Source: a virus
Direction: 5' to 3' (one strand)
Length of the DNA: 40,508 bases
IMG/VR virus record: IMGVR_UViG_3300008116_007638
Location: 1-40,508 of that record
In this document: positions 8,494 through 35,145 of the stretch, one piece after another
Numbering within the stretch: position 1 is the stretch's first letter
Layout: the number at the start of each line of letters is the position of its first letter
Position numbers and translations under genes: made by a program
Notes under the pieces: model-generated
Seen by the model: only the letters and a program-made list of their open reading frames with translations
Told to the model about the DNA's origin: nothing
Database searches by the model: none

Positions 8494-11301
8494 GTGAGTC
8501 TTTGTAAAAAACTTGTAATCAAAAACATATCTACTGTTGTTAGGGTTATCTCATACACTCGATGTTCGGATGGTTTGGTAATTGACAATTATCAAATTCC
8601 TGCAGGTGCTACAAGGACAATTTATTATAGAATATTTTCTTATAGTACTGCATCTCCTCAAAGTTTTCAAATTTTATCGTTAGAAGATTGGCCGCCAGCT
8701 TCAACACCAACACCAACACCCACGATAACTCCTACGGTGACTCCTACGGTGAGTATTACTCCTACTAATACTGCTTCACCAAGTCCAACGAGAACGAGTA
8801 CTCAAACACCTACACAGACCTCCAGTGGGACTGCAACGCCAACACCTACACCAACCGTAAGTCCAACTCAAACTCCAACTAACACACCTACTCCTTCAAT
8901 TACTCTGTCGGCAACAAATTCACCAACACCGACAAATACAAATACTCCAACTCAAACGTCAACTCAAACACCTACGAGTAGCGTTACTCCATCAAATACG
9001 CCAACGCCAACAATAACTGAATCACCAACATCAACACCAGGTGAAACTCCAACTCAAACTCCCACAAATACCGCATCTAATTCTCCTACACCAACAAATA
9101 CGGATACTCCGACCCAAACTCCATCCCAAACACCAACATCGACGGTCACTAGTACTCCTACGGTAAGTATTACAGCATCTCCAACAGCAAGTAATACCCC
9201 AACTAATACTCCTACAAATACTGTTACCGCAAGTAATACTGTTACACCAACACAAACAGAAACTCCAAGTCCAACACCCGGAGAATCTCAGACTCCGACA
9301 CCATCGGTAACCCCAACAATTACTTTGTCTCCAACAAATAGTGGTACACCGACTACAACACCAACCAACACATTCACACCAACTCCTTCGATAACATCAT
9401 CACCTACGGAAACTCCAAGTCCAACACCTGGAGAAACACCATCTCCGACCGCTTCGATTACACCTACAAATACGCCGACACAGACCTCAACAACAACACC
9501 AACTAATACTCCATCAAACACTGAAACTCCGACTAACACGCCGAGTCCTACTGTGACTGATACCCCAACCCCAACTCCTGGAGAATCTGCGACTCCAACT
9601 CCGACTCAAACAGGAACACCAACAAATACTCCAAGTAACACGGCATCTCAAACTCCAACACAGACTGAAACACCAACAAATACTCCAAGCAACACATCTT
9701 CTCAAACACCAACTCAAACTGGTACTCCAACAAATACGCCAAGTAACACGGCTTCTCAGACTGCAACACAAACACCAACTCCAACTGAAACACCAACAAA
9801 TACTCCAAGTAATACAGCGTCTCAGACTGCAACACAAACACCAACGCAAACTGAAACGCCAACCAATACTCCAAGTAATACAGCGTCTCAGACTCCATCT
9901 CAAACACCTACTCAGACCGGTACACCAACAAACACGCCAAGTAACACAGCTTCTCAGACTGCAACACAAACACCAACTCCAACTGAAACACCAACAAATA
10001 CTCCAAGTAATACAGCTTCCCAAACTCCGACTCAGACTGGTACACCAACAAATACTCCAAGTAATACAGCATCTCAGACTCCATCTCAAACGCCAACTCA
10101 GACTGGCACACCAACAAATACTCCAAGTAACACGGCTACTGAGACCCCAACTCCGACACCGACACAGACTCCAACTCCGACACAAACATACACTCCTACC
10201 CCAAGTTTAACAGCATCAGTTACTCCAACAGAAACTCCGACTCAAACACCCGAACCAACTTATTGGTCAATTAATGAATTGACAAATTGTTGTACTGGAG
10301 AACGATATAATCCTGGGGTTCTTGTTAGTTTATCTTCGACAGCACCTCAAAATGGTGACACAATTTCTGTGAATGCCGATGGTACAGGAATCAAGTGTTG
10401 GACAATCACGAGTGAGGTCACACCAATATCACCAGAATCTGGAGAATATATCATAACTAATTATGGTCCTGAAAACTGTGAGATTTGTTTGACATCGTAC
10501 CCATGTCCTTCACCAACTCCTACTCCAACTCAGACACAGACTCCAACACAAACTCAAGCGGAATTGGTTTATATCTTGGAAGAATGTCCAGGTGGTGGTG
10601 ATGTAATATATGCTAACTTTATAAATGCCGGAGCACCTAATAACGACGTAGTTTATATTAATTTCGATGGAGGAAGTGGTTGTTATATTGTTGTTGGGCC
10701 TTCGCCAGGACCTGCAGATTTATATGTAACAAGTAAAACTGACCAAACTGCTTGTAATACATGTAACGTGTCTCCAACTCCAACACCTACTCAAACTAGA
10801 ACCCCAGCGGCAACCCCAACGGTGACCCCGACTAAAACTCCAACTTCAACCCCAACAAGGACTCCAACCGGAACACCTGTAGCAACACCTACACCAACAA
10901 AGACTAAGACACCAACACCAACACAATCGAATTGTTCGACCCAAATCCAAATCAACTGGGCAATTCAAACATGTGCTAGAGGTACGTTTGAAATCTTGGT
11001 TAATGGTGGTAATGTTTATACTAAAAATGCATTGGGAATTGCGGGAAGTGGTACTGACACAATCAGTGTACCATACAACTCAACAATTACATTAAATGGT
11101 AGTGCAATAAACGTTGCAGGTGGTTCATGTGTTGGTATTTATGATACTTCAGCAATCAATATGACGCCGACAAGCGGAGGTGCGAACGGTGTTACGATTG
11201 TTAGAGTTAGTGATGGAACACCAAACAACTTCTCATATAGTTACACTAAAACGTGTCCGAACACTGTAATTACTTTAGACTATGTACCGAACCCTATTTA
11301 A
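8494..11301 (+). CDS. Mucin-like Thr/Pro-rich repeat protein, probable virion surface protein
   Basis: A 935-residue protein with GTG start, preceded by AAAAG. Architecture: N-terminal globular domain 1-66; Thr/Pro/Ser/Asn/Gln repeat region about 67-589 ending in nine TPTNTPSNT-type units; Cys-containing module A about 590-670 (CCTGERY ... CEICL); short PT linker; related Cys module B about 690-757 (ECPGGG ... CNTCN); PT linker to about 810; C-terminal beta-rich domain to 935. No signal peptide is seen. Its place right after the gp23 gene, with its own motif and terminator boundary, suggests a capsid decoration protein or fibre; no homology proves this. The very high Thr density makes it a plausible O-glycosylation target for the enzymes encoded at 19-36 kb. 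Minus-strand ORFs here are repeat shadows. Confidence 0.85.
9616..10140 (+). repeat. In-frame tandem repeat, nine units of 54 or 66 nt
   Basis: Nine consecutive units starting ACACCAACAAATACTCCAAG (synonymous variants) encode [13 protein letters not shown] followed by either PTQTE/G (18 residues) or ATQTPTPTE / PSQTPTQTG (22 residues). Length differences are multiples of three, so the reading frame is kept. The DNA is conserved enough to recombine, so copy number could vary between strains. The less regular PT region extends upstream to about 8700. Confidence 0.9.
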
Positions 11302-22856: not shown

Positions 22857-23600
22857 TTATGGAGTTGTAACTCCTCTTTTACTCACAACTACAGAACTCA
22901 TTTTGTTTGCAAATTCTATCGATTGTGAGATGTCGTCAGTGTCAAGATATTTCGACACAAGAGCGGCGATGAAAGTATCTCCAGCACCACTAACATCAAT
23001 TGTTTCTTGAGGTTTTGGAGATTCATAAATAATATTGTTATGTTTGGCACCCTTGGGTCCCAAAGTTATAACAAATTTGGCAAGATTTGAGTCAACTATG
23101 TTTTTGTTGTTATTATACTCATCCTCATTAAGTTTGATTAAAAATAGATTTGACAACTCGATTTCTGTTAAATCTTTTTTAGAATCTAAAAAAACTTTTT
23201 TATTATTAGAACTGATAAAATTGATGATTTCCGAAGTCAAAAAACCCTTGTCATAATCACTAATTATAATTGAATCATAAGAATCTAAATTCACTAAATC
23301 ATTCATATCTATTTGATTTAGTTTTTTATTCTCACCCTTATCAACTCTTAGGAAAATATGGTTAGATTTACCTTCAATAAATCTGACTTTTTTTATTTGT
23401 TCTGAATTTGTTAAGTGAGTAATGTCAAGTTTGGCATTGATACTCTTTAGGTTGGAAACCACGTTACCAGACATTCCTGAATTGGAAGTAACATGGGTTG
23501 GTTTTAGAATCGGTACGGGAGCTTCAGGAGATAATCTTTCAACAACACCATAAATAAAACTATCTACACAAGTTTCACCTACCACTAAGATTTTTTTCAT
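22857..23600 (-). CDS. HldE-type sugar kinase (PfkB family; RfaE domain I)
   Basis: A 247-residue PfkB kinase. Features typical of the heptose-7-phosphate kinase half of HldE: N-terminal GETCVDSFIYG and ERLSPEAPVPIL (motif 24-32), and C-terminal DVSGAGDTF at 202-210 with catalytic base Asp208. At 247 residues it is shorter than the HldE kinase domain (about 315), with loss mainly in the lid and middle. Likely product is a heptose 1-phosphate for nucleotide activation, but another sugar phosphate is possible. It overlaps by 26 nt the upstream nucleotidyltransferase gene, the other half of HldE, supporting a shared pathway. Confidence 0.85.
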   Translation of the reverse strand: MKKILVVGETCVDSFIYGVVERLSPEAPVPILKPTHVTSNSGMSGNVVSNLKSINAKLDITHLTNSEQIKKVRFIEGKSNHIFLRVDKGENKKLNQIDMNDLVNLDSYDSIIISDYDKGFLTSEIINFISSNNKKVFLDSKKDLTEIELSNLFLIKLNEDEYNNNKNIVDSNLAKFVITLGPKGAKHNNIIYESPKPQETIDVSGAGDTFIAALVSKYLDTDDISQSIEFANKMSSVVVSKRGVTTP

Positions 23601-24000
23601 TTCTTATTATATTTGTTGAGGAGTAATTTCCGATTCTATCGAAGAATAACACTTGTTCACAATATTGTGAACCAATAACCTTCTTATCTCTGTAATCTGA
23701 ACCAACAATTATATATTTTGGACCCCACACTTTGACCTCATTTTCCAACTCTTCATCCGAACCAAAACCAACTACACTATCGACAAAAACTAAACTCTCG
23801 ATTAGAAATTTTCTGTCATTCCAAGTATTAATTGGTCGGTCATCTCCTTTGAAATTTTTGACACGCTCATCGTAATCCAATCCAACTCTAACTTGTCCCA
23901 TTTTTGAGGCATATCGTAATAACTCGATGTGACCTCGATGTATCACATCGAAAGTTCCATTTACCCAAATTTTCAAAGGTTTTGATTGTCCCCCGGCCAT
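23575..24000 (-). CDS. HldE/TagD-type nucleotidyltransferase (RfaE domain II)
   Basis: A 141-residue cytidylyltransferase-family enzyme that couples a sugar 1-phosphate or alcohol phosphate to NTP. Motifs: VNGTFDVIHRGH at 13-24 with the HxGH signature His21/His24; VGSDYRDKK in the position of the RfaE VxGxDY-K stretch; and GNYSSTNIIR (STxxII motif). Length equals the C-terminal half of HldE. The upstream cupin gene overlaps by 28 nt and the kinase follows with a 26-nt overlap. Likely ADP- or GDP-heptose formation with the kinase; a glycerol-phosphate cytidylyltransferase is an alternative. Confidence 0.85.
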   Translation of the reverse strand: MAGGQSKPLKIWVNGTFDVIHRGHIELLRYASKMGQVRVGLDYDERVKNFKGDDRPINTWNDRKFLIESLVFVDSVVGFGSDEELENEVKVWGPKYIIVGSDYRDKKVIGSQYCEQVLFFDRIGNYSSTNIIRNEKNLSGR

Positions 24001-24362
24001 ATTCTATAAGAATCTGAATCAAAATGAGAAGTGGAAACCTCGAAAATTATACCATCACTCAATGCCTCTAATTGATGAGGTTGACCAGGTAGTTGACGAA
24101 CTGTGTCCCCCTCTTTTAATTTATTTTCGATTACAGAGCCGTTTTCTGTATCTATCCATCGATAAATAAATTCTCCTTCTTTAACATACCAAGTTTCATC
24201 TTTCAAAAGATGATAATGCATGGAAAACTTCATACCCTCTTTGAATACGAGAAGTTTCCCACAATAGAGGTCATTGTTTTCAAAAATAATTTCATGACCC
24301 CATCCTTTTGGGATGGTACAACTACTACATTCTTTTGCGTTATAAATTATTGGTTTTTCCAT
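23973..24362 (-). CDS. Cupin-fold protein, sugar-isomerase-like
   Basis: A 129-residue single-domain cupin with metal ligand pattern His49, His51, Glu56 and His96, in SMHYHLLKDETWYV and LPGQPHQLEAL. The preceding KGWGHEIIFENNDLYCGKLL resembles mannose-6-phosphate isomerase type II and polysaccharide-biosynthesis cupins. It could isomerise or epimerise a sugar phosphate, for example to feed mannose or heptose precursors, but enzymatic activity is not certain. It starts with a TAATG junction right after the GDP-mannose 3,5-epimerase gene. Confidence 0.82.
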   Translation of the reverse strand: MEKPIIYNAKECSSCTIPKGWGHEIIFENNDLYCGKLLVFKEGMKFSMHYHLLKDETWYVKEGEFIYRWIDTENGSVIENKLKEGDTVRQLPGQPHQLEALSDGIIFEVSTSHFDSDSYRIWPGDNQNL

Positions 24363-25483
24363 TAGATAATATCCCTTTCAAGTTTTCCAAATTCTCTACG
24401 ATACACTGTATTACCTTTGTCGGGACTTTCGTAGATGTAAACGTTTTCGGATTTGTTTTTTATAACCTGTTCTTCAATCCAACTATATGTTTTTTCCATA
24501 CCTTCTCTAAGTGTTAACTTTGATTCCCAACCCACTTTTTCACGGTAAAGTTTGTTATCAGAGTTTCTACCTCTGACACCAAGAGGACATGGGAATCCAT
24601 ATTTATTTACAAATGTTTCACCCTCAATATTTTTGATTTTGATGTCTTTTCCTGATAAATCGATGGCAATTTGTGCAAGTTCGTTGATTGTTACCATTTC
24701 CTCAGAACCTATGTTCACTGGTCCCACAAAATCACTTTCCATTAATCTAAGAACCGCTTCAACACACTCATCAACATAAAGAAATGAACGTGTTTGTTGT
24801 CCATCACCCCAAACCTCTAATTGATATTCGGGTCTTGATTGACCCGGTATTTTGTCCCAATCGTTTACCTCTGCGGCTTTTCTACACATCGCAGCTGGTG
24901 ACTTCTCTTTACCACCCTTCCATGTTCCTTGTGGACCAAATACATTGTGGAATCGGGCAATTCTTACATCCAATCCATAGTTTCTCTTAAATGCCAAAAA
25001 CAATCTTTCTGAAAATAGTTTTTCCCACCCATATTCTGAATCAGGGTTAGCAGGATATGCCGAAGATTCTTCACAATTTGGATTATTGGGGTCCAACTGA
25101 TTATGTTCTGGATACATACAAGCTGAGGAGGAATAGAAAACTTTACCCACTTTCTTTTTTGACGATTCATGACAAACATTCAAATTAATCAATGCTGAAT
25201 TATGCATCACATTTGCATCGTTTTCACCCGTGAAAATATAACCAGCTCCCCCCATGTCTGCGGCCAGTTGATAAAGTTCATCAACACCTTCATCAATAAC
25301 CAATTCCACTAACTTGGGGTCTGTTAAATCACCAACAATAAATTGGTCACAAATTTCTTTTTCATCGAAGTATTCATGTTTTTTCAAATCACAAATACGA
25401 ACGTAATTCCCTTCAGATTTAAGTCTTTTTGCGAGGTGACCACCAATAAATCCGCCACCACCTAATACGATAATTTTTTTCAT
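24362..25483 (-). CDS. GDP-mannose 3,5-epimerase-like NAD-dependent SDR enzyme
   Basis: Extended SDR of 373 residues. I choose the ATG at 25483, which overlaps the upstream stop as ATGA, rather than a TTG at 25495. Nucleotide-binding motif GGGGFIGG is at 8-15; catalytic Tyr151 and Lys155 lie in EYGWEK; SSSACMYP at 118-125 includes the Cys that the plant GDP-mannose 3,5-epimerase uses. Further GME-specific stretches are MGGAGYIF, RFHNVFGPQGTWKGG with EKSPAAMCRKA, GDGQQTRSF, and PVNIGSEEMV. The expected reaction is GDP-mannose to GDP-L-galactose (or GDP-L-gulose). The next upstream gene is a GT11-like transferase, whose donors are chemically close to GDP-L-galactose. Confidence 0.9.
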   Translation of the reverse strand: MKKIIVLGGGGFIGGHLAKRLKSEGNYVRICDLKKHEYFDEKEICDQFIVGDLTDPKLVELVIDEGVDELYQLAADMGGAGYIFTGENDANVMHNSALINLNVCHESSKKKVGKVFYSSSACMYPEHNQLDPNNPNCEESSAYPANPDSEYGWEKLFSERLFLAFKRNYGLDVRIARFHNVFGPQGTWKGGKEKSPAAMCRKAAEVNDWDKIPGQSRPEYQLEVWGDGQQTRSFLYVDECVEAVLRLMESDFVGPVNIGSEEMVTINELAQIAIDLSGKDIKIKNIEGETFVNKYGFPCPLGVRGRNSDNKLYREKVGWESKLTLREGMEKTYSWIEEQVIKNKSENVYIYESPDKGNTVYRREFGKLERDII

Positions 25484-26310
25484 AATAATTTCCAATTTTC
25501 AGGATAAACATTTGATGTATCTAACACCATCGATGGATAAAAATTCTTTGGTGCAATTACGTTGTTTTTTTTGTTTAGAAAAGATGCCCACCATGAGAAA
25601 GTTGAGGCAAATGATGTGATATTATAATCACAAGATTTCATAAGGCTAAAAGTTTCAATATCATTGAATCCCTCTACAAATACAATTCTTTCATCTTTGA
25701 AATGTCTTTTACACCAATCAATGTCACTCTCCAAAACATTCTTTCTTGAACCTCCTGTGAACAATAAGATTGTTGAATCTGTGGGGATTTCCTTAAGTGC
25801 GTTTGTATAATAATTGTAAAGAACTGACCCCTCTGAAAAATCATTGGACCACTGAGTATCAGTTGGGTTTGTACCATCACTTACGTCTCCTCTTCTGACG
25901 TGTAATGAAACTGTGGTACCTAAATTATGTAGGTATTCATCAACTTTATCCTGAATTGAATTAATCATTTCAAATTCTTCGATAAGCAAGTCTCTGATGG
26001 GGGTATAATAATTGGGATGTTGAAAGAATCCCATAAAGTCAGTGTTGTCTTTTACATCAAAAACATCGGTATCAAAAATTCGGAGTTGTTTTTCATGGAA
26101 ATAGTTTTTAATATCTAAATTTCCATAGGTACAGGATGGGAGTTTGAAATTTCCCATGAGGCATTGTTGTCCGTGCCAATTTCTAACATTAATATCTTTT
26201 GGTAATACAATTTCAAATCCTGTTTTATTTTGGACTGACTTCAAAATTGCATATTGAAATAACTGATTTCCTAATCTTCCGTATTCTCCTAAATGACTAA
26301 AACTTATCAT
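25480..26310 (-). CDS. GT11 fucosyltransferase-like (alpha-1,2-fucosyltransferase family)
   Basis: A 276-residue protein. GT11 signatures: GRLGNQLFQYA at 11-21, SLHVRRGD with HVRRGD at 137-142, and the C-terminal NITSFASTFSWWASFL. These bind GDP-sugar donors. The window has no GDP-mannose 4,6-dehydratase or fucose synthase, the GDP-fucose pathway, but does encode a GDP-mannose 3,5-epimerase directly downstream with a 4-nt ATGA overlap. GDP-L-galactose may therefore be the donor, since L-galactose differs from L-fucose only by the 6-hydroxyl. Host-supplied GDP-fucose remains possible. Confidence 0.92.
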   Translation of the reverse strand: MISFSHLGEYGRLGNQLFQYAILKSVQNKTGFEIVLPKDINVRNWHGQQCLMGNFKLPSCTYGNLDIKNYFHEKQLRIFDTDVFDVKDNTDFMGFFQHPNYYTPIRDLLIEEFEMINSIQDKVDEYLHNLGTTVSLHVRRGDVSDGTNPTDTQWSNDFSEGSVLYNYYTNALKEIPTDSTILLFTGGSRKNVLESDIDWCKRHFKDERIVFVEGFNDIETFSLMKSCDYNITSFASTFSWWASFLNKKNNVIAPKNFYPSMVLDTSNVYPENWKLL

Positions 26311-28054: not shown

Positions 28055-28693
28055 TTAGATTTTTTTACAGTTTTTGAATACTGTGAAATCAGTCAAATCT
28101 CTATATCCATTATGTTCATCTAAATCAGGAACATTCATGGGGTAATTTTGCATAAGTGCCAATCCGTGTGATGCTTGTTGAGGGGTCATATACATGTTCC
28201 AACCAAGCATTTTGATGTCATCTTCGTGATATAAAACCTCGTTTCTACCTTCATAACGAGCTTGTTTGAACCATTTAACAGCATCTTCACTGTCTGTAAG
28301 AATCATACCACCCTTACCTATTTTGAGGTGTTTTTTTATGTGAAATGATAAACACATAAAACTACCAGGGATATACATATCCGAGGTAAATCTTTTAGCC
28401 GAATCATAGATTGGGTAGGGTTTAAGTTGATATATACCTTGCCAATTGTTTGTCTCTTCTGAAGTGTCAAAAATCACTTCTCCACCTGAGTGGATAATTG
28501 ATTGTGGAACAGATAAGTAAGTTTTAGATGGAATAGTTACTTGTTGTACTTCCAAATACTTACACACTAAAAATAATGCGTTGGTACAGTTATCGACTGA
28601 TATTGCGTAAGGAGCTCCTGTGTAGTCAGCAACTTCTTCTTCAAATTGTTTTACAATTTTATATGGGTTTGTTTTGGGTTTTCTAAGATTCAT
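28055..28693 (-). CDS. Short DegT/DnrJ/EryC1-type sugar aminotransferase
   Basis: PLP-dependent aminotransferase family for nucleotide-linked keto sugars. At 212 residues it is far shorter than usual (about 370): the N-terminal PLP domain is recognisable but the C-terminal small domain is mostly missing. Landmarks: DNCTNALFL (phosphate-binding turn), YDSAKRF around 97-102 (Asp of the PLP pyridine), and SFHIKKHLKIGKGG with presumed Schiff-base Lys121. No frameshift remnant is visible, and the gene is flanked by a 4-nt overlap with GNAT and a 1-nt gap to the methyltransferase. It could be a minimal active enzyme or a degenerate one. Confidence 0.85.
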   Translation of the reverse strand: MNLRKPKTNPYKIVKQFEEEVADYTGAPYAISVDNCTNALFLVCKYLEVQQVTIPSKTYLSVPQSIIHSGGEVIFDTSEETNNWQGIYQLKPYPIYDSAKRFTSDMYIPGSFMCLSFHIKKHLKIGKGGMILTDSEDAVKWFKQARYEGRNEVLYHEDDIKMLGWNMYMTPQQASHGLALMQNYPMNVPDLDEHNGYRDLTDFTVFKNCKKI

Positions 28694-29100: not shown

Positions 29101-29873
29101 TTCTTTTCTAGATAAAACCTACCTTGTTTCATCCAATACTCTTTTAGGTATTCTCTACTTCCTTTCCATCCTTCCATTTTCATAATTGGATTTAGTGTAC
29201 TTCCCATATCTAAATAGGTGTTGTTGGGAAACTCACGAAATAACTGATGGATTATTAAATTTGACAAGCTGGCGGCGGAAACCAAAACCAAATGGTCTCG
29301 AATGTCATTTTCTGAAATATACTTTTTCAAATCATCGATGATTGAGACATCGTTGATAAAACAATTAGTACCAACTCTGAAATCTTTTACGATATCAAAA
29401 CCTAATTGAGATATATCGGCGGATTTATTTACAACGATTATTACTTTTTTTGTTTTGAACAATGGTACAATTCGTTCTAAATATTTTTCATAGTTTCCGT
29501 TAACAAACAAGTTTGACCAAGTCATGTATTCACTATCACCACCTGCCATTTCCATTTGAAAATCAAAATCAGATTGTGATACACAACATCTACAGGATAT
29601 ACCTTTGAAATAATTTTCTTGTTGGTGTTGGAGAGAGTCAATTAACATCTGCCTATTTTCTGAATGGGTTTCAGGATGAAACTTTTTTTGTTCTTCCTCA
29701 TTGTATCGACCCATACCTAAATTGTTGCCAATGATATAGTGATTTTCATTCAGTTCCAATCGTTTGTTTTGTAGAATAAACAATTCTCCATCAGAAAATC
29801 TTGTGAATGCAAAATTCTCACCATTCGATAATTTTTCTCGAAATAATTCTAAATGTCCTTCAAACGTTTTCAT
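29088..29873 (-). CDS. GT-D (DUF1792)-type glycosyltransferase
   Basis: A 261-residue protein. FAFTRFSDGEL at 21-31 contains the DxE motif (Asp-Gly-Glu) characteristic of the GT-D fold; LVLVSAASLSNLIIHQLF and the C-terminal TYLDMGSTLNPIM also fit. The founding member, dGT1 of Streptococcus, adds a sugar during O-glycosylation of a serine-rich repeat adhesin. That precedent is relevant because this window also encodes a Thr/Pro-rich repeat protein. The ATG overlaps the upstream GT2 stop by 4 nt. The family call is from motif memory and fairly strong. Confidence 0.8.
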   Translation of the reverse strand: MKTFEGHLELFREKLSNGENFAFTRFSDGELFILQNKRLELNENHYIIGNNLGMGRYNEEEQKKFHPETHSENRQMLIDSLQHQQENYFKGISCRCCVSQSDFDFQMEMAGGDSEYMTWSNLFVNGNYEKYLERIVPLFKTKKVIIVVNKSADISQLGFDIVKDFRVGTNCFINDVSIIDDLKKYISENDIRDHLVLVSAASLSNLIIHQLFREFPNNTYLDMGSTLNPIMKMEGWKGSREYLKEYWMKQGRFYLEKNCIW

Positions 29874-30598
29874 CTATTTTTCATCAATTGGAATCCTTTA
29901 TTAATATAATTGACAAAAGTATCGGACATAATTTTCAAATTGTCAAAGTTCATCGATATAGCTGCAGAATCTTGTCCGATGGACCATGCAGTCATTGGAA
30001 TACTTCCCCATTTATCAACTTGGTTTTTGGGGTGTGGAGGAACAAAAGTTTTTTTACCAAGGTACTTTTGTAAAGTGTATGAAAAATGCATGTCTTCACC
30101 AACTAAAGTCGATTGTTCAATCGAGGGTAATTCTCTCCAAAAAGTTGATAACCACTCTCGTCTAAAAAACCATGCGTGACCAACAATATCCACTTCTTCA
30201 ACCTGTTCGTTCGGTTGTGCCCAACCATGTCTGACATGAGGTTGATAACCTGTCTCAGATAAAAATTTGACACCAATAGTCCCAAGTAATCCATCGTGAG
30301 TTTTAATAGTTTCCAAACAATTTTCTAACCACTTAGGACCAGGGATTGTATCGTCATCAAAAACACAAATGTACTCGGTCTTAGCATTTAGTGCAAAGGC
30401 AAATCGAGCCCAAACTCCTAAATTCTTATTACAAGAAGCGTGAGTAGTCTGTGAGGTCAATTCTGATTTGAAATCTTCTCCAAAGTTTTGCCACAAAAGA
30501 ATTTCATCAGGTTGAACTGTTTGACGTTTTATAGCATCAAGTTGTGTCTTCAAGTGAGCACCTCTTTTATATCCATTTAAGACCACTGTAACACTCAT
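29870..30598 (-). CDS. Glycosyltransferase, GT2 (GT-A fold)
   Basis: A 242-residue protein. N-terminal VTVVLNGYKRGAHLKTQLDA starts a typical GT-A domain; YICVFDDDTIPGPKWLE includes the DxD motif (Asp81-83); VGEDMHFSYTLQKYLG fits the catalytic ED segment. Soluble, no membrane helices. It is coupled by 4-nt overlaps both to WecB upstream and GT-D downstream. Donor unknown; UDP-ManNAc or UDP-ManNAcA are candidates by neighbourhood only. Confidence 0.93.
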   Translation of the reverse strand: MSVTVVLNGYKRGAHLKTQLDAIKRQTVQPDEILLWQNFGEDFKSELTSQTTHASCNKNLGVWARFAFALNAKTEYICVFDDDTIPGPKWLENCLETIKTHDGLLGTIGVKFLSETGYQPHVRHGWAQPNEQVEEVDIVGHAWFFRREWLSTFWRELPSIEQSTLVGEDMHFSYTLQKYLGKKTFVPPHPKNQVDKWGSIPMTAWSIGQDSAAISMNFDNLKIMSDTFVNYINKGFQLMKNR

Positions 30599-31578
30599 AG
30601 TTGTTCTAATATTTTAATAATTTTTTCTGATGAAAATCCGTCACCATACGGGCATTCATAATCTACTTTATAATCATAAATTAGCCTGTCAAATAATAAA
30701 CTTAATTCATTGTGGGTTGGACACAAATAGGAATGAATATTCAATGACTCAGTTCGTTCAGTAACTTTACGACAAACAATTACTTTTTTGTTAAAAAAAG
30801 ACGCTTCTTCCTGAACCCCACCACTATCAGAAATTAATAATTTACATCGTTTCATTGTTTCGATAAATTGGTCATGGTTCATGGGTTCAACAACCTCTAC
30901 ATTTTGTAAAAGGTGTTTGTGTTTTTTTACCATTGGATTTGGATGAATTGGTAAAATAAAACGAAGTTCAGGGTATCGACTGGCAATTGAATCAATTTCT
31001 TTGAACCAATTTCCCATTTCTTCATGGTTTTCGCGTCTGTGTAGGGTTACTAAAACTATATTATCGTAACTCAGATTTTCCTTGTCTAAATTATCCAATA
31101 CGGTATTACCGACAATATAAATTTCTCCACCCACTTTTTCATCATGTAAATTATTTGCATTTGTGACTGTAGGACATAGGTGAATATCGGCAATTCTACT
31201 CACAAATTGTCTGTAAGACTCTTCAGGATATGGATTCATTTTATCATAGGTTCTGAGACCGGCTTCTAAATGAATAACTTTGATACCTCTATGGAAAGCG
31301 GCCAATGCAAGGGCAAAGGCCGATGCGGTATCTCCTTGTACTAAAACATAATCAATCCCTTGTAAACACTCATTAATTCCGTCAGAAAGTATTGATGATA
31401 CAATTGTGTCAAGTCTGTTGAGTCCGTTCTCAATATCAAGTTTGAAGTCAAAATCTCCCAAAACAATATCTTTGTGTTGGGCGGTATATAAAACTTTGTG
31501 AGGAATATTATTAGAAAGAGATATCAATTTTTTTATTTTGATATACTCGGGTCTCGTACCGTAACAATATAAAATCAT
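30595..31578 (-). CDS. wecB: UDP-N-acetylglucosamine 2-epimerase
   Basis: Converts UDP-GlcNAc to UDP-ManNAc. In 327 residues, diagnostic motifs are GTRPE at 7-11, QGDT at 81-84, HLEAGLRT at 103-110, YPEE, VTLHRRENH, ISDSGGVQEEA and the RxxTERxE-like stretch RKVTERTES. Slightly shorter than typical WecB (about 370). The dehydrogenase gene directly upstream (2-nt gap) matches the next pathway step, so the two likely produce UDP-ManNAcA. A cytoplasmic enzyme. Confidence 0.96.
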   Translation of the reverse strand: MILYCYGTRPEYIKIKKLISLSNNIPHKVLYTAQHKDIVLGDFDFKLDIENGLNRLDTIVSSILSDGINECLQGIDYVLVQGDTASAFALALAAFHRGIKVIHLEAGLRTYDKMNPYPEESYRQFVSRIADIHLCPTVTNANNLHDEKVGGEIYIVGNTVLDNLDKENLSYDNIVLVTLHRRENHEEMGNWFKEIDSIASRYPELRFILPIHPNPMVKKHKHLLQNVEVVEPMNHDQFIETMKRCKLLISDSGGVQEEASFFNKKVIVCRKVTERTESLNIHSYLCPTHNELSLLFDRLIYDYKVDYECPYGDGFSSEKIIKILEQL

Positions 31579-31580
31579 AA

Positions 31581-32747
31581 TCAGAAATGAATTGGTATTC
31601 CTTCGGGTTTAGACCCTTCAGTGTAAAATTTAACCCTATTACCGAAATCATTTGATAATTCCGACAAAAGTTTTCTGTCATTCAAAATGTAATCACACTC
31701 AATGATATTAACAGAATACCCGTCATTTAATAAGTCATACATTAATCTCAATTGTTGTGATTCAACCAACATATCAGTTCCCTTTTTATAGGTTATATGA
31801 TTCATAACAAATGGTACATTTTTGTCGGGATTAATTGTTTCCCAATGGTTTCTCAAGAATTGTGAGTGACTTTCATTGAAATCATCAACTGCGTATGGAA
31901 GATTTACTTTGAGTCCTAAAGCTGATGCAAAGTGACCTAAAGCTCTATTATCTCGTGGTAAACATGGTCCACCAAATCCAAAACCATAATTCAAATATTT
32001 GGAACCAACTCTAGAATCATTACCTATTGAATGTAATACCAACTTAATTTCATCAGACAAACCAGCGCTTGTTAGAATTTCACCAATCAAATTGGCATAA
32101 CTAATTTTGGTGGTTAGAAAACAATTTATTGATATTTTTGTAACTTCCGCAGCCATTGACGACATTGAATTAATCTTAACAGGTATTGTTTGAATTTTAG
32201 AATATATCTTAGAGAGGGTATTCACACTATTTTGATTAGTTGACCCAATCAAAACCATATCGGCCTGTTCCAAACCTTTGATAATTTCACCTTGAGCTAT
32301 GAATTCTGGATTGTAACAAACATCAATATTCATTGGATTCAAAATATCCATAATTTTTCTTGTATCACCAGGATTGGTTGTGCACCCAATAACAAATATT
32401 TTTCCAAAAACAGGTATTTCGTTTTCAAATGCCCAACCCCAATCATGCACAACATCCATTAAATACGTAATGTCGTATTCACCAGTTGGTTTAGAAGGAG
32501 TTGATACAAAGGTGTAAACAACATCACATTGTTCAATGACCTTCACATTATCTGTTGTTGCAGAAAATTTTGTGGTTTTTTGGAGTAACTCCAACACACC
32601 AGGTTCATTGGTCTGAATTAATTTTTTATTCAAACCATCGATGTAATCTTGTCTTACGTCTGAAACTAATACATCAAACCCTGCTTGTTCACAGAGTAGT
32701 GCAAAAGTTATCCCTAATCGTCCAGCACCAATAACTCCTATTTTCAT
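31581..32747 (-). CDS. wecC: UDP-ManNAc (or UDP-glucose type) 6-dehydrogenase
   Basis: NAD-dependent nucleotide-sugar dehydrogenase, 388 residues. Rossmann motif GAGRLG at 7-12; CTTNPGDT; MAAEVTKISINCFLTTKISY with catalytic Lys204 and Asn208; GFGFGGPCLPRDN with the nucleophilic Cys262. The position next to WecB suggests UDP-ManNAc as substrate; the general UDP-glucose/GDP-mannose dehydrogenase family cannot be narrowed further by eye. Each turnover consumes two NAD+, and the gene immediately upstream is an NAD synthetase with a 4-nt overlap. Confidence 0.9.
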   Translation of the reverse strand: MKIGVIGAGRLGITFALLCEQAGFDVLVSDVRQDYIDGLNKKLIQTNEPGVLELLQKTTKFSATTDNVKVIEQCDVVYTFVSTPSKPTGEYDITYLMDVVHDWGWAFENEIPVFGKIFVIGCTTNPGDTRKIMDILNPMNIDVCYNPEFIAQGEIIKGLEQADMVLIGSTNQNSVNTLSKIYSKIQTIPVKINSMSSMAAEVTKISINCFLTTKISYANLIGEILTSAGLSDEIKLVLHSIGNDSRVGSKYLNYGFGFGGPCLPRDNRALGHFASALGLKVNLPYAVDDFNESHSQFLRNHWETINPDKNVPFVMNHITYKKGTDMLVESQQLRLMYDLLNDGYSVNIIECDYILNDRKLLSELSNDFGNRVKFYTEGSKPEGIPIHF

Positions 32748-33511
32748 ACTCTGAAGGTAGGTATTGGTCTCATTTTATGAATATTTTTTTTGTGCCAAGA
32801 TTCATAAATTTTCATAACTTCATTTTCTTTTGAACTGAATTCAGTTTTGTATTGACCAATCTCCATTGCCCACTCCAATTCTTCGTATGATGCACCAATT
32901 TGGTCTTCATCACTTCTGCCATCGGACCACAACCCATCTGTTGGTTTAGCATCCAATATTTCTTTTGTTACACCAAGATACTTGCCAAGTTCCCTAACTT
33001 CCGTTTTGTATAAGTCGGCAATTGGAGATATATCAACACCACCATCACCATACTTTGTAAAAAATCCAACCCCATAATCCTCAACCTTATTACCTGTCCC
33101 AACTACAATTCCGTTTTGAGTTGTTGCTAAGTGATAAAGTGAAATCATTCTGAGTCTTGAACGAACATTTGCACTAGCTAATTCACTAGTGGCGGTCATC
33201 GAAAGGGTGTCATCAAGTAATTTGAAAACCTCACTGAGTTCAATTGTAGACTTGGTGACATTTTCATATTTGTCTTGAAGTATTGAAATTAGGTTGTTAG
33301 CTCGAATTGTCTCTTCAACATTTTGACGAATTGGTAAAACAACTAAGTTTGTTGGTAATCCTGTTTCAGCGCAAAGAGATGATACGGTGGCACTATCGAT
33401 GCCACCTGACACACCAACAACCAAAGATTCGATATTGTTGGTGATACAATAATTTTTAATCCAAAGAACAATTTTATTGGATAGTTCTTCGTAGTCTATA
33501 AAACGGTTCAT
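32744..33511 (-). CDS. nadE: Ammonia-dependent NAD+ synthetase
   Basis: Adenylates deamido-NAD and amidates it to NAD+. In 255 residues the PP-loop SGGIDS is at 35-40, NVRSRLRM at 115-122, GTGNKVEDYGVGFFTKYGDG at 138-157 and SPIADLYKTEVRELGKYLGV follow the NadE pattern. No glutaminase domain is present, so it would use free ammonia. It is coupled by ATGA overlaps to a glycosyltransferase upstream and the dehydrogenase downstream. Its presence may sustain NAD+ for sugar oxidation or counter host NAD depletion; both are inference. Confidence 0.95.
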   Translation of the reverse strand: MNRFIDYEELSNKIVLWIKNYCITNNIESLVVGVSGGIDSATVSSLCAETGLPTNLVVLPIRQNVEETIRANNLISILQDKYENVTKSTIELSEVFKLLDDTLSMTATSELASANVRSRLRMISLYHLATTQNGIVVGTGNKVEDYGVGFFTKYGDGGVDISPIADLYKTEVRELGKYLGVTKEILDAKPTDGLWSDGRSDEDQIGASYEELEWAMEIGQYKTEFSSKENEVMKIYESWHKKNIHKMRPIPTFRV

Positions 33512-35145
33512 GAGTTGATAGTTTGTAAATAAAGTTTATGTATTTGATTTGTAACGTTCTTCGAATCAAATTTTTCAAGTTCAGATTTTGTTGGTGGTTC
33601 AAATAATGTTTTCTTGTTGATGTGTCCTGAGGAATCCACATCGTAAATCCAAGAAGGTTTACCACAAAACCAACTTTCGATAGTGGTTCTACCCAACAAA
33701 ATTCCTGCGGTGTATTTTACCCTGTTGATATATTTCTCAGTATTCCAAGTTGGTTGTAAATGTTTTACGTGAGAGTTTTGTAATAGAGAATCCAAATAAT
33801 CTGACTTATTTTCACCAAGGAGCCATAATTCTAAATTTTCTGTCCGAGTTTGTTCGACCAAATCTTTGATTGAATTTTCTCTCAAATAATCAATCGTTCC
33901 TACAAATAAACAGGCGTTTTCTTCCTTTTGGTTTGAAGAACGAAATCTATCTGAATCAACTGGATTATACATTACTGAACATTGAGATTCATCTATTTGA
34001 TAAACATTTTCAATGTGTTCTTTAATTTCAGGTCTAATACAGATATAGTGTTTGATTGAATCGTGGACAACAGGTTTTTCCAATTCAATTACCTCCGAGT
34101 GTATTGTACTGACTTTATCAATTTGAGGGTACAGATTGAGAAAATAATTTGTTATCGGTTCATGTTGTACGTGAATAATATCAAAACTAATATCTGAGAC
34201 ACGATACATGGTATTTGGTATTGAAGGTCCGATTCCGTTTGGACCCTCTACTAACCATTTTCCATCCCCCATCTTGTAACCTGGAGGTTCTGATGTTGGA
34301 AAAACTTTTATGCCAACTTTTTTTGCCATTTCAGTGAGTGGTCCTCCAATTTCTGAAACCACACTCACATCGTGACCCACCTTGACCAAATTTTTTGCTA
34401 ATTCAAAGATATAAACTTCCGAACCAGTAAAGTTTTTGAAAAACAAACAACCAATTAAAATTTTTAATTTATCCTTGTCCGTTTTTTTAATTTTTACTGG
34501 AAGTAGAGATTCAAATTCTTCGGCAAAAAGTTTTCTATTGGCATCCCATTGTTCATTAGTCATACCAATGGACTTGTGGGTAATTTTAATGTCGAATACT
34601 ACCCCAATTTTTACTTGTTCAATGAAATTTCTAAAACAGAAATTAACATCGTAAAGGTGGAACCCTTTTACATTCTCATCAAAGTTTTTCTTAATTCTAT
34701 TTTTGTGTAATGCAATAAATAATCCATCAACTAAGACAGTTTCTTTGATTGAATTACCCAAGTTATCCGAGTATTTTGAGGTCCATTTTTTACCCTCATG
34801 TTCGTGGTTAACAATACCTATCATTTTTGTTCTGTCTTCCCACCACATTCCACTCTTAGGTAGTTGAGTACTACCAGCTACACCCAAAATCCCATAATCG
34901 GACCTTTTGAAGTGGTTCATAATTTTTTGACCCCAATTGTTTGAATCAAAATAAATGTCGTCGTGACAAAGTATTACAATGTCAAATGTAGATTGCTCTA
35001 AGATTTCATTGTAAACCTCGGTTAGTGATTTACCATCAGGATTTACTACTTCAATTATCTGGGAATTGTGGACACCGGAACTTTTTCTGAAATATTCTTG
35101 TAGTTCAGGGTTTGTTTCTCGGGTACTATAAGCGATTGTAATCAT
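33508..35145 (-). CDS. Two-domain glycosyltransferase (GT-A fused to GT-B)
   Basis: A 545-residue protein with two transferase modules. Residues 1-215 are GT2-like: ILEQSTFDIVILCHDDIYFD carries an HDD metal motif, and WWEDRTKMIGIVNHEHEGKK, VDGLFIALHKNRI and GFHLYDVNFCFR fit the family annotated as Glyco_tranf_2_5. Residues about 225-545 are GT4-like: LIGCLFFKNFTGSEVYIFEL, ENACLFVGTIDYLREN, and the C-terminal AGILLGRTTIESWFCGKPSW with the conserved Glu. Such a fusion could add two successive sugars. It is coupled by 4-nt overlaps to both neighbours. Confidence 0.9.
   Translation of the reverse strand: MITIAYSTRETNPELQEYFRKSSGVHNSQIIEVVNPDGKSLTEVYNEILEQSTFDIVILCHDDIYFDSNNWGQKIMNHFKRSDYGILGVAGSTQLPKSGMWWEDRTKMIGIVNHEHEGKKWTSKYSDNLGNSIKETVLVDGLFIALHKNRIKKNFDENVKGFHLYDVNFCFRNFIEQVKIGVVFDIKITHKSIGMTNEQWDANRKLFAEEFESLLPVKIKKTDKDKLKILIGCLFFKNFTGSEVYIFELAKNLVKVGHDVSVVSEIGGPLTEMAKKVGIKVFPTSEPPGYKMGDGKWLVEGPNGIGPSIPNTMYRVSDISFDIIHVQHEPITNYFLNLYPQIDKVSTIHSEVIELEKPVVHDSIKHYICIRPEIKEHIENVYQIDESQCSVMYNPVDSDRFRSSNQKEENACLFVGTIDYLRENSIKDLVEQTRTENLELWLLGENKSDYLDSLLQNSHVKHLQPTWNTEKYINRVKYTAGILLGRTTIESWFCGKPSWIYDVDSSGHINKKTLFEPPTKSELEKFDSKNVTNQIHKLYLQTINS

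Follow-up and report, generated by a model that had tools for sequence, protein, structure and literature searches.

A NadE-family gene paired with a nucleotide-sugar dehydrogenase gene in phage glycan clusters: a possible route to sugar uronamides

Introduction

Why should a phage keep a gene of the nicotinamide adenine dinucleotide (NAD) synthetase family next to a gene for a sugar dehydrogenase, in the midst of genes for glycan synthesis? This question is raised by the virus record IMGVR_UViG_3300008116_007638, the whole 40,508-base stretch of which was analysed here and is called the window. T4-like head genes (the end of the terminase gene and the genes for the portal, the head maturation protease and the major head protein) lie on its left and are followed by a long minus-strand block that is rich in glycosyltransferase and nucleotide-sugar genes. 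Within this block, the open reading frames for NadE, a nucleotide-sugar dehydrogenase and a WecB-like epimerase are consecutive, with a 4-nucleotide (nt) overlap (ATGA) at the first junction and a 2-nt gap at the second, just as an earlier note on this DNA described them. That note took the genes to be fused by translation, named the dehydrogenase WecC, proposed UDP-N-acetylmannosaminuronic acid (UDP-ManNAcA) as the product, and explained NadE by a local supply of NAD or by defence against NAD-depleting anti-phage systems. In this report, we demonstrate that the real finding at this locus is a conserved NadE-dehydrogenase pair, not the spacing of the junctions, and we weigh what this pair may do.

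Results

Viral contigs yielded 313 relatives in the search with NadE and 467 in the search with the dehydrogenase, and the best 80 of each were kept; the two sets of 80 viral loci share contigs and are not independent. A dehydrogenase homologue was found downstream of NadE in 79 of the best 80 NadE loci, directly adjacent in 57 (52 with the same 4-nt overlap as in the window and five in which the overlap is called as 16 nt) and with 736-1644 nt between the two genes in the remaining 22; the one locus without a dehydrogenase (L076) is a stretch that ends early, and its contig holds both genes. Conversely, NadE was present in 78 of the best 80 dehydrogenase loci, and one of the two misses (L215) comes from the same contig as L076, which holds both genes; the other (L196) is truly without NadE. 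After clustering at 90% NadE identity, 45 distinct loci remained, among which the dehydrogenase was the most constant neighbour (44/45), ahead of the next family, GT11 (37/45). In one locus (L185), NadE has been relocated behind the dehydrogenase, still within the cluster. NadE and the dehydrogenase stay adjacent far more consistently than chance would explain, and these counts bear out the claim that the two genes belong together.

Among named phages, the dehydrogenase gene lies beside NadE or one gene away in all 15 records in which NadE reaches at least 49.6% identity; these records bear 11 names, including S-SSM7, Bellamy, P-TIM68, S-SCSM2R, Sf-FS3 and HTVC008M. At the sensitivity used, the dehydrogenase was detected in none of the 34 named-phage records with a more distant NadE. 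The association is one-way: of the 34 named records in which a dehydrogenase was matched, 19 lack a close NadE, and the reverse case did not occur. In addition, the partner has been swapped: in HTVC008M, Bellamy, L028 and L058, NadE is accompanied by a dehydrogenase from a different branch, which in HTVC008M and Bellamy is about 24% identical to that of the window; other-branch dehydrogenases score 128-131 bits with TIGR03026, versus 205-219 bits for the window's enzyme and four others of its type.

Cells, plasmids and more distant phage NadE were compared with these loci. No dehydrogenase lay within the fetched stretch in any of 80 cellular NadE loci (the best 80 among the matches listed), some of these stretches being shortened by contig ends and cyanobacterial and SAR11 genomes lying outside the set. 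A dehydrogenase matching the phage type at an E value of 1e-60 or better occurred in one of 296 genomes from the phylum of one Flavobacterium, and no NadE above 49.4% identity was present among the 15 plasmid matches listed of 278. Three of the four distant phage NadE genes inspected occur together with NAD-pathway genes: those for nicotinate phosphoribosyltransferase (NAPRT) and nicotinate nucleotide adenylyltransferase in phage G, those for NAPRT and nicotinamide mononucleotide (NMN) adenylyltransferase (NMNAT) in Phosso, and those for NMNAT and nicotinamide phosphoribosyltransferase (NAMPT) in X1; the fourth, in ME3, has neither kind of neighbour. The clusters of phage G, Phosso and X1 thus resemble the pair in that a phage nadE is carried, but the NadE there is only distantly related (28-32% identity) and comes with NAPRT, NMNAT or NAMPT genes. 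PF04095, the family of NAPRT and NAMPT, was absent from all 16 phage records searched that carry the pair, including four complete named genomes and several fragments (the search did not extend to Adps and Namat, the enzymes of NARP1); this search covered contig G027 (locus L002, near-identical to the window), not the window record itself.

The window NadE is a member of its family by profile, scoring 174.2 bits with PF02540 (cut-off 21) and 188.3 bits with TIGR00552 (cut-off 63.65); PF02540 is its sole Pfam match at an E threshold of 0.001, and no asparagine synthase domain was found in it. Its AlphaFold model (predicted local distance difference test, pLDDT, 83) has the fold of the family, the first 38 among the structural matches listed all being NAD or NMN synthetases (Z 20.3-29.9). 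The PP-loop residues G, S, G, G, D and S are invariant in the viral NadE alignment, and the ligand-contact positions R119, T139, E144, F150, K153, D160, K169, T191, H245 and K246 are intact in the window protein. Except for the nicotinate-side aromatic, these are positions that we take to be contacts with ATP and deamido-NAD. The aromatic position follows a passage of PMC6946656. In family, fold, PP-loop and all ligand contacts checked, the phage protein is therefore like the NH3-dependent NAD+ synthetase NadE of cells (PF02540/TIGR00552), and the difference lies in the context, since the phage gene adjoins a nucleotide-sugar dehydrogenase gene in glycan clusters, and its records are without PF04095 (16/16). 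A single clade of phage NadE was not rejected by the approximately unbiased (AU) test (p 0.19 and 0.23), nor was it supported, and thus we make no claim of independent recruitments. A separate observation concerns annotation: AVU42_gp170 of the Prochlorococcus phage P-TIM68 (locus L167) is annotated as 'NAD synthetase', has 144 amino acids (aa) and bears no evident likeness to NadE, and PF02540 matches only another gene of that record. Our guess is that it is a GIY-YIG-type nuclease; annotation-based counts of phage nadE may be inflated.

To judge from its profiles and motifs, the dehydrogenase is of the UDP-glucose/GDP-mannose type and not the WecC of the earlier note. It scores 212.5 bits with TIGR03026 (cut-off 189.8), its catalytic cysteine, C262, is invariant in 16 rows, and its closest PDB matches are 3gg2, 1mfz and 3vtf, the GDP-mannose dehydrogenase 1mfz scoring among UDP-glucose dehydrogenases (UGDs). 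With the profiles for dehydrogenases of UDP-N-acetylmannosamine (UDP-ManNAc), it remains far below the cut-offs (PRK11064, 44.8 versus 459; UDPMaNacDH_Arch, 70.5 versus 750). In an alignment with one sequence of each type, the cysteine motif reads GFGGPCLPRD in the window, GYGGYCLPKD in Escherichia coli Ugd and GVGGHCIAVD in E. coli WecC, and the helix near the catalytic Lys/Asn reads TTKISYAN, AMRVAYFN and DVNIAFAN, respectively. Thus, the enzyme is like UDP-glucose 6-dehydrogenase and GDP-mannose 6-dehydrogenase in its TIGR03026 score and best PDB matches, but it also falls below the equivalog cut-offs for UDP-glucose dehydrogenase (TuaD, 149.5 versus 700; AglM, 140.9 versus 670), and its substrate is therefore predicted at the level of the type only. 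Two side observations concern this gene in other loci: a second, distant kind of dehydrogenase in the 128-131-bit range, below the TIGR03026 cut-off, is paired with NadE in L028, L058, L164 and L166, and in L196 a glycosyltransferase gene upstream abuts the dehydrogenase gene.

WecB itself is well identified (TIGR00236, 233 bits; cut-off 210.15), and its association with the pair is rare. Among the 80 NadE loci (L002-L081), it accompanies the pair only in L002 and L003, both near-identical to the window, and among the 80 dehydrogenase loci only in L171, L172 and L217; WecB beside the pair is thus limited to contigs of the window phage and to L217, which has most of the cassette and a WecB that is 73% identical. 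Conversely, 14 of 16 WecB loci have neither NadE nor the dehydrogenase in the fetched stretch and carry the same GT2 gene 3' of WecB; 13 of these 14 are near-identical, and in the fourteenth (L272) just 347 bases precede WecB. NadE-dehydrogenase and WecB-GT2 are thus the natural units, and because they separate, UDP-ManNAcA is not the obvious product.

The spacing of the junctions was rejected as evidence for a functional link, as close junctions are the rule in the minus-strand block: 30 of its 36 junctions are overlaps or gaps of at most 3 nt, nine are exactly -4, and 4-nt overlaps also join NadE to the preceding gene and WecB to the following one. The overlap on which the expression 'fused by translation' was based is real, but the expression overstates what is common to most of the block.

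The genes of the cassette and the other features described here are collected in Table 1. Downstream of the cluster, 7 of the 45 distinct loci have a porin-like gene with a conserved N-terminus (MKLKQLMLAPVALG...), which we guess to be of the cyanobacterial kind. In the window, the 935-aa protein encoded next to the major head protein gene consists, over residues 71-660, of 36% Thr, 19% Pro and 12% Ser; this mucin-like stretch could be an acceptor for the many glycosyltransferases of the block. The block also contains split heptose genes, for which the profile scores lie below the cut-offs (TIGR02198, 135 versus 345 for the kinase; TIGR02199, 86 versus 182 for the adenylyltransferase), and a DegT/DnrJ aminotransferase homologue of only 212 aa, two separate stretches of which match the 360-position profile; this short form was found again in L217.

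Table 1. Positions of the features discussed (in the window unless a locus is named)
Feature	Position	Strand	Remarks
NadE-family NH3-dependent ligase, 255 aa	32744..33511	-	PP-loop S35-G-G-I-D-S40; PHROG 11189
Nucleotide-sugar 6-dehydrogenase, UDP-glucose/GDP-mannose type (predicted), 388 aa	31581..32747	-	Catalytic-Cys motif GFGFGGPCLPRD; PHROG 9148 UDP-glucose dehydrogenase
WecB-type non-hydrolysing UDP-GlcNAc 2-epimerase, 327 aa	30595..31578	-	Separable module with next GT2 gene
GT2-family glycosyltransferase	29870..30598	-	Follows WecB even where NadE and dehydrogenase are missing
Two-domain glycosyltransferase (PF13712 + PF13439)	33508..35145	-	Upstream of NadE, 4-nt overlap with NadE
GT11-family (PF01531) glycosyltransferase	25480..26310	-	Common in NadE-dehydrogenase clusters
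Nucleotide-sugar epimerase/dehydratase (short-chain dehydrogenase/reductase, SDR)	24362..25495	-	Common in NadE-dehydrogenase clusters
DegT/DnrJ aminotransferase homologue	28055-28693	-	
Split heptose genes	22857-24000	-	PfkB kinase (HldE domain I-like) and adenylyltransferase (HldE domain II-like)
Gene for 935-aa protein	8494-11301	+	Immediately 3' of major head protein gene
Porin-like gene	L005 8801-10303; L032 10477-11970; L080 11275-12741		Downstream of cluster
AVU42_gp170 of P-TIM68	L167 2650-3084		

Discussion

We tentatively favour the view that NadE and the dehydrogenase work together as a two-gene module, conserved in phages, that makes a modified sugar acid; NadE would amidate the C6 carboxylate, instead of or in addition to making NAD. 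We infer this from the gene context and the type of reaction. With a little less assurance, we suggest that marine and freshwater phages, T4-like ones among them, may have adopted a branch of the NAD synthetases as amidating enzymes for nucleotide-uronic acids, with the C6 carboxylate as the target. On its usual substrate, nicotinic acid adenine dinucleotide (NaAD), NadE adenylates the nicotinate carboxylate, and AMP is then replaced by ammonia. In the proposed pathway, the dehydrogenase, whose family and motif are observed, would use two NAD+ to oxidise C6 of a nucleotide sugar, presumably that of UDP-glucose or a similar hexose, to a carboxylate; the NadE-family protein would adenylate this carboxylate with ATP, ammonia would displace AMP to yield a nucleotide-hexuronamide, and glycosyltransferases of the block would place the uronamide into a glycan. 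In a separate branch, suggested by the separable gene pairs, WecB would supply UDP-ManNAc to its own glycosyltransferase. The occurrence in named records of the dehydrogenase without a close NadE, but not of the reverse, is expected if NadE acts on the product of the dehydrogenase. Uronamides formed next to dehydrogenases of this kind have precedents in Bacteroidota. The proposed job, amidation of a sugar carboxylate in the course of glycan synthesis, is that of the AsnB-type amidotransferase WbpS (PGN_1234) of Porphyromonas gingivalis, which makes glucuronamide according to a part of PMC7468200; the enzyme there is of the AsnB family, whereas the phage protein is of the NadE family. In Tannerella forsythia, by the relevant passages of PMC6120980, an asnB gene lies within a wecC-wecB glycan cluster, and the glycan holds ManNAcA and its uronamide; the same passages assign that asnB to another modification.

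Several observations weigh against amidation of a sugar acid by the phage protein. All ten contact positions checked, as listed above, are the same as in cellular NadE in 125 of 125 viral rows, the positions that separate viral from cellular sequences are not clustered at the contacts (3 of 20 lie within two residues, with a random mean of 3.4), and as a test for an altered substrate the residues are therefore neutral to negative. The window NadE shares 49-56% identity with the best cellular NadE; its best PDB match by both sequence (153 bits) and fold (Z 29.9) is the NadE-type NMN synthetase of Francisella tularensis (3fiu), from which it differs in gene context, and in fold this match, which is one between NadE-type enzymes generally, is tied with the NAD synthetase 1xng (Z 29.1). 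In the tree, paired phage NadE falls at as many as four points among the cellular branches, and replacement by a cell-like enzyme would agree with ordinary NadE activity. In addition, the dehydrogenase of L196 has no NadE across its entire 46.6-kb contig. Given the unchanged contact positions and the identity to cellular NadE, it is quite possible, as far as the sequences go, that phage NadE is a plain NAD synthetase. As such, or as an NMN synthetase, it might sustain the NAD pool on which the block's dehydrogenase and epimerases draw during infection, and phage nadE is taken as an NAD or electron-transport gene in parts of PMC11097641 and PMC7238727. We regard this supply of NAD as possible and as nearly as likely as the making of a uronamide, because the contacts are unchanged, the viral-specific positions are not near them and phage NadE is mixed with cellular branches, cell-like NadE lying near phage NadE in the tree; the profile scores exceed the cut-off for NAD synthetase, and the fold matches NAD and NMN synthetases. 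However, UGD-type enzymes reduce NAD+ and do not use up NAD, so that the dehydrogenase would cycle NAD+ and NADH with no net consumption. More than half of the named-phage dehydrogenase records do without a close NadE, and PF04095 is absent from the pair records searched, whereas most of the distant phage NadE genes inspected are accompanied by NAD-pathway genes. Thus, the supply of NAD fits the residues well but the one-way, partner-swapping and cluster-bound pairing poorly, because the dehydrogenase consumes no NAD.

The remaining explanations fare worse. A pathway to UDP-ManNAcA, in which WecB makes UDP-ManNAc, the dehydrogenase oxidises it as WecC would and NadE is accessory, draws on a good WecB and on the recurrence of the trio in one further phage (L217), but it is quite improbable, as the dehydrogenase misses the UDP-ManNAc dehydrogenase cut-offs and has Ugd-type motifs, the pair is without WecB in nearly all loci, and WecB with its glycosyltransferase mostly stands without the pair, albeit in loci that are largely near-identical; neither the product nor the enzyme name WecC of the earlier note is supported here. 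We consider it very unlikely that NadE restores NAD+ depleted by host NADase-type defences. NadE makes NAD only from NaAD. In contrast, NARP enzymes use the products of NADases (the substrates of NARP1 are given in a portion of PMC12774641, which also establishes phage NAD reconstitution, by these other enzymes); a search for partner enzymes, made with the single family PF04095, found none, and NadE is consistently placed next to one class of enzyme within sugar clusters. Nor did PADLOC, run on eight cassette proteins, return anything relevant to NAD-depleting defence, its one weak match being a neighbour gene to a Cas-associated exonuclease-type model, and the counter-defence proposed earlier thus finds no support in these searches. 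Least likely of all is that the genes share no biochemistry and were inherited together as passengers on a single mobile glycan island: many loci do come from related T4-like phages with other neighbours in common, GT11 foremost, but the pair stays constant while other neighbours vary, the dehydrogenase has been exchanged for one of another branch with the pairing kept, and NadE, though relocated in L185, is still in the cluster.

In the open-access PMC literature, to which our search was limited (subscription papers lay outside it), we found no publication in which phage NadE is linked with the dehydrogenase or a uronamide enzyme of the NadE family is put forward. The nearest cases are PMC10452541, part of which counts both genes among cyanophage genes (24/153 and 1/153), and PMC11097641, where both appear, unlinked in the portion concerned, among abundant snow-virus genes. 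As far as these literature searches show, sugar-acid amidation would be a new function for the NAD synthetase family. The claim that the phage pair makes a uronamide is easy to test because isolates carry the pair (S-SSM7, P-TIM68, Bellamy and HTVC008M). A NadE-like gene beside a sugar-acid gene is carried by many ocean and freshwater phages; if amidation is indeed its role, many auxiliary-metabolic-gene calls of phage nadE would be wrong, the NAD synthetase family would acquire a new substrate class, and phages would make uronamide sugars, removing the negative charge of uronic acids on the glycan.

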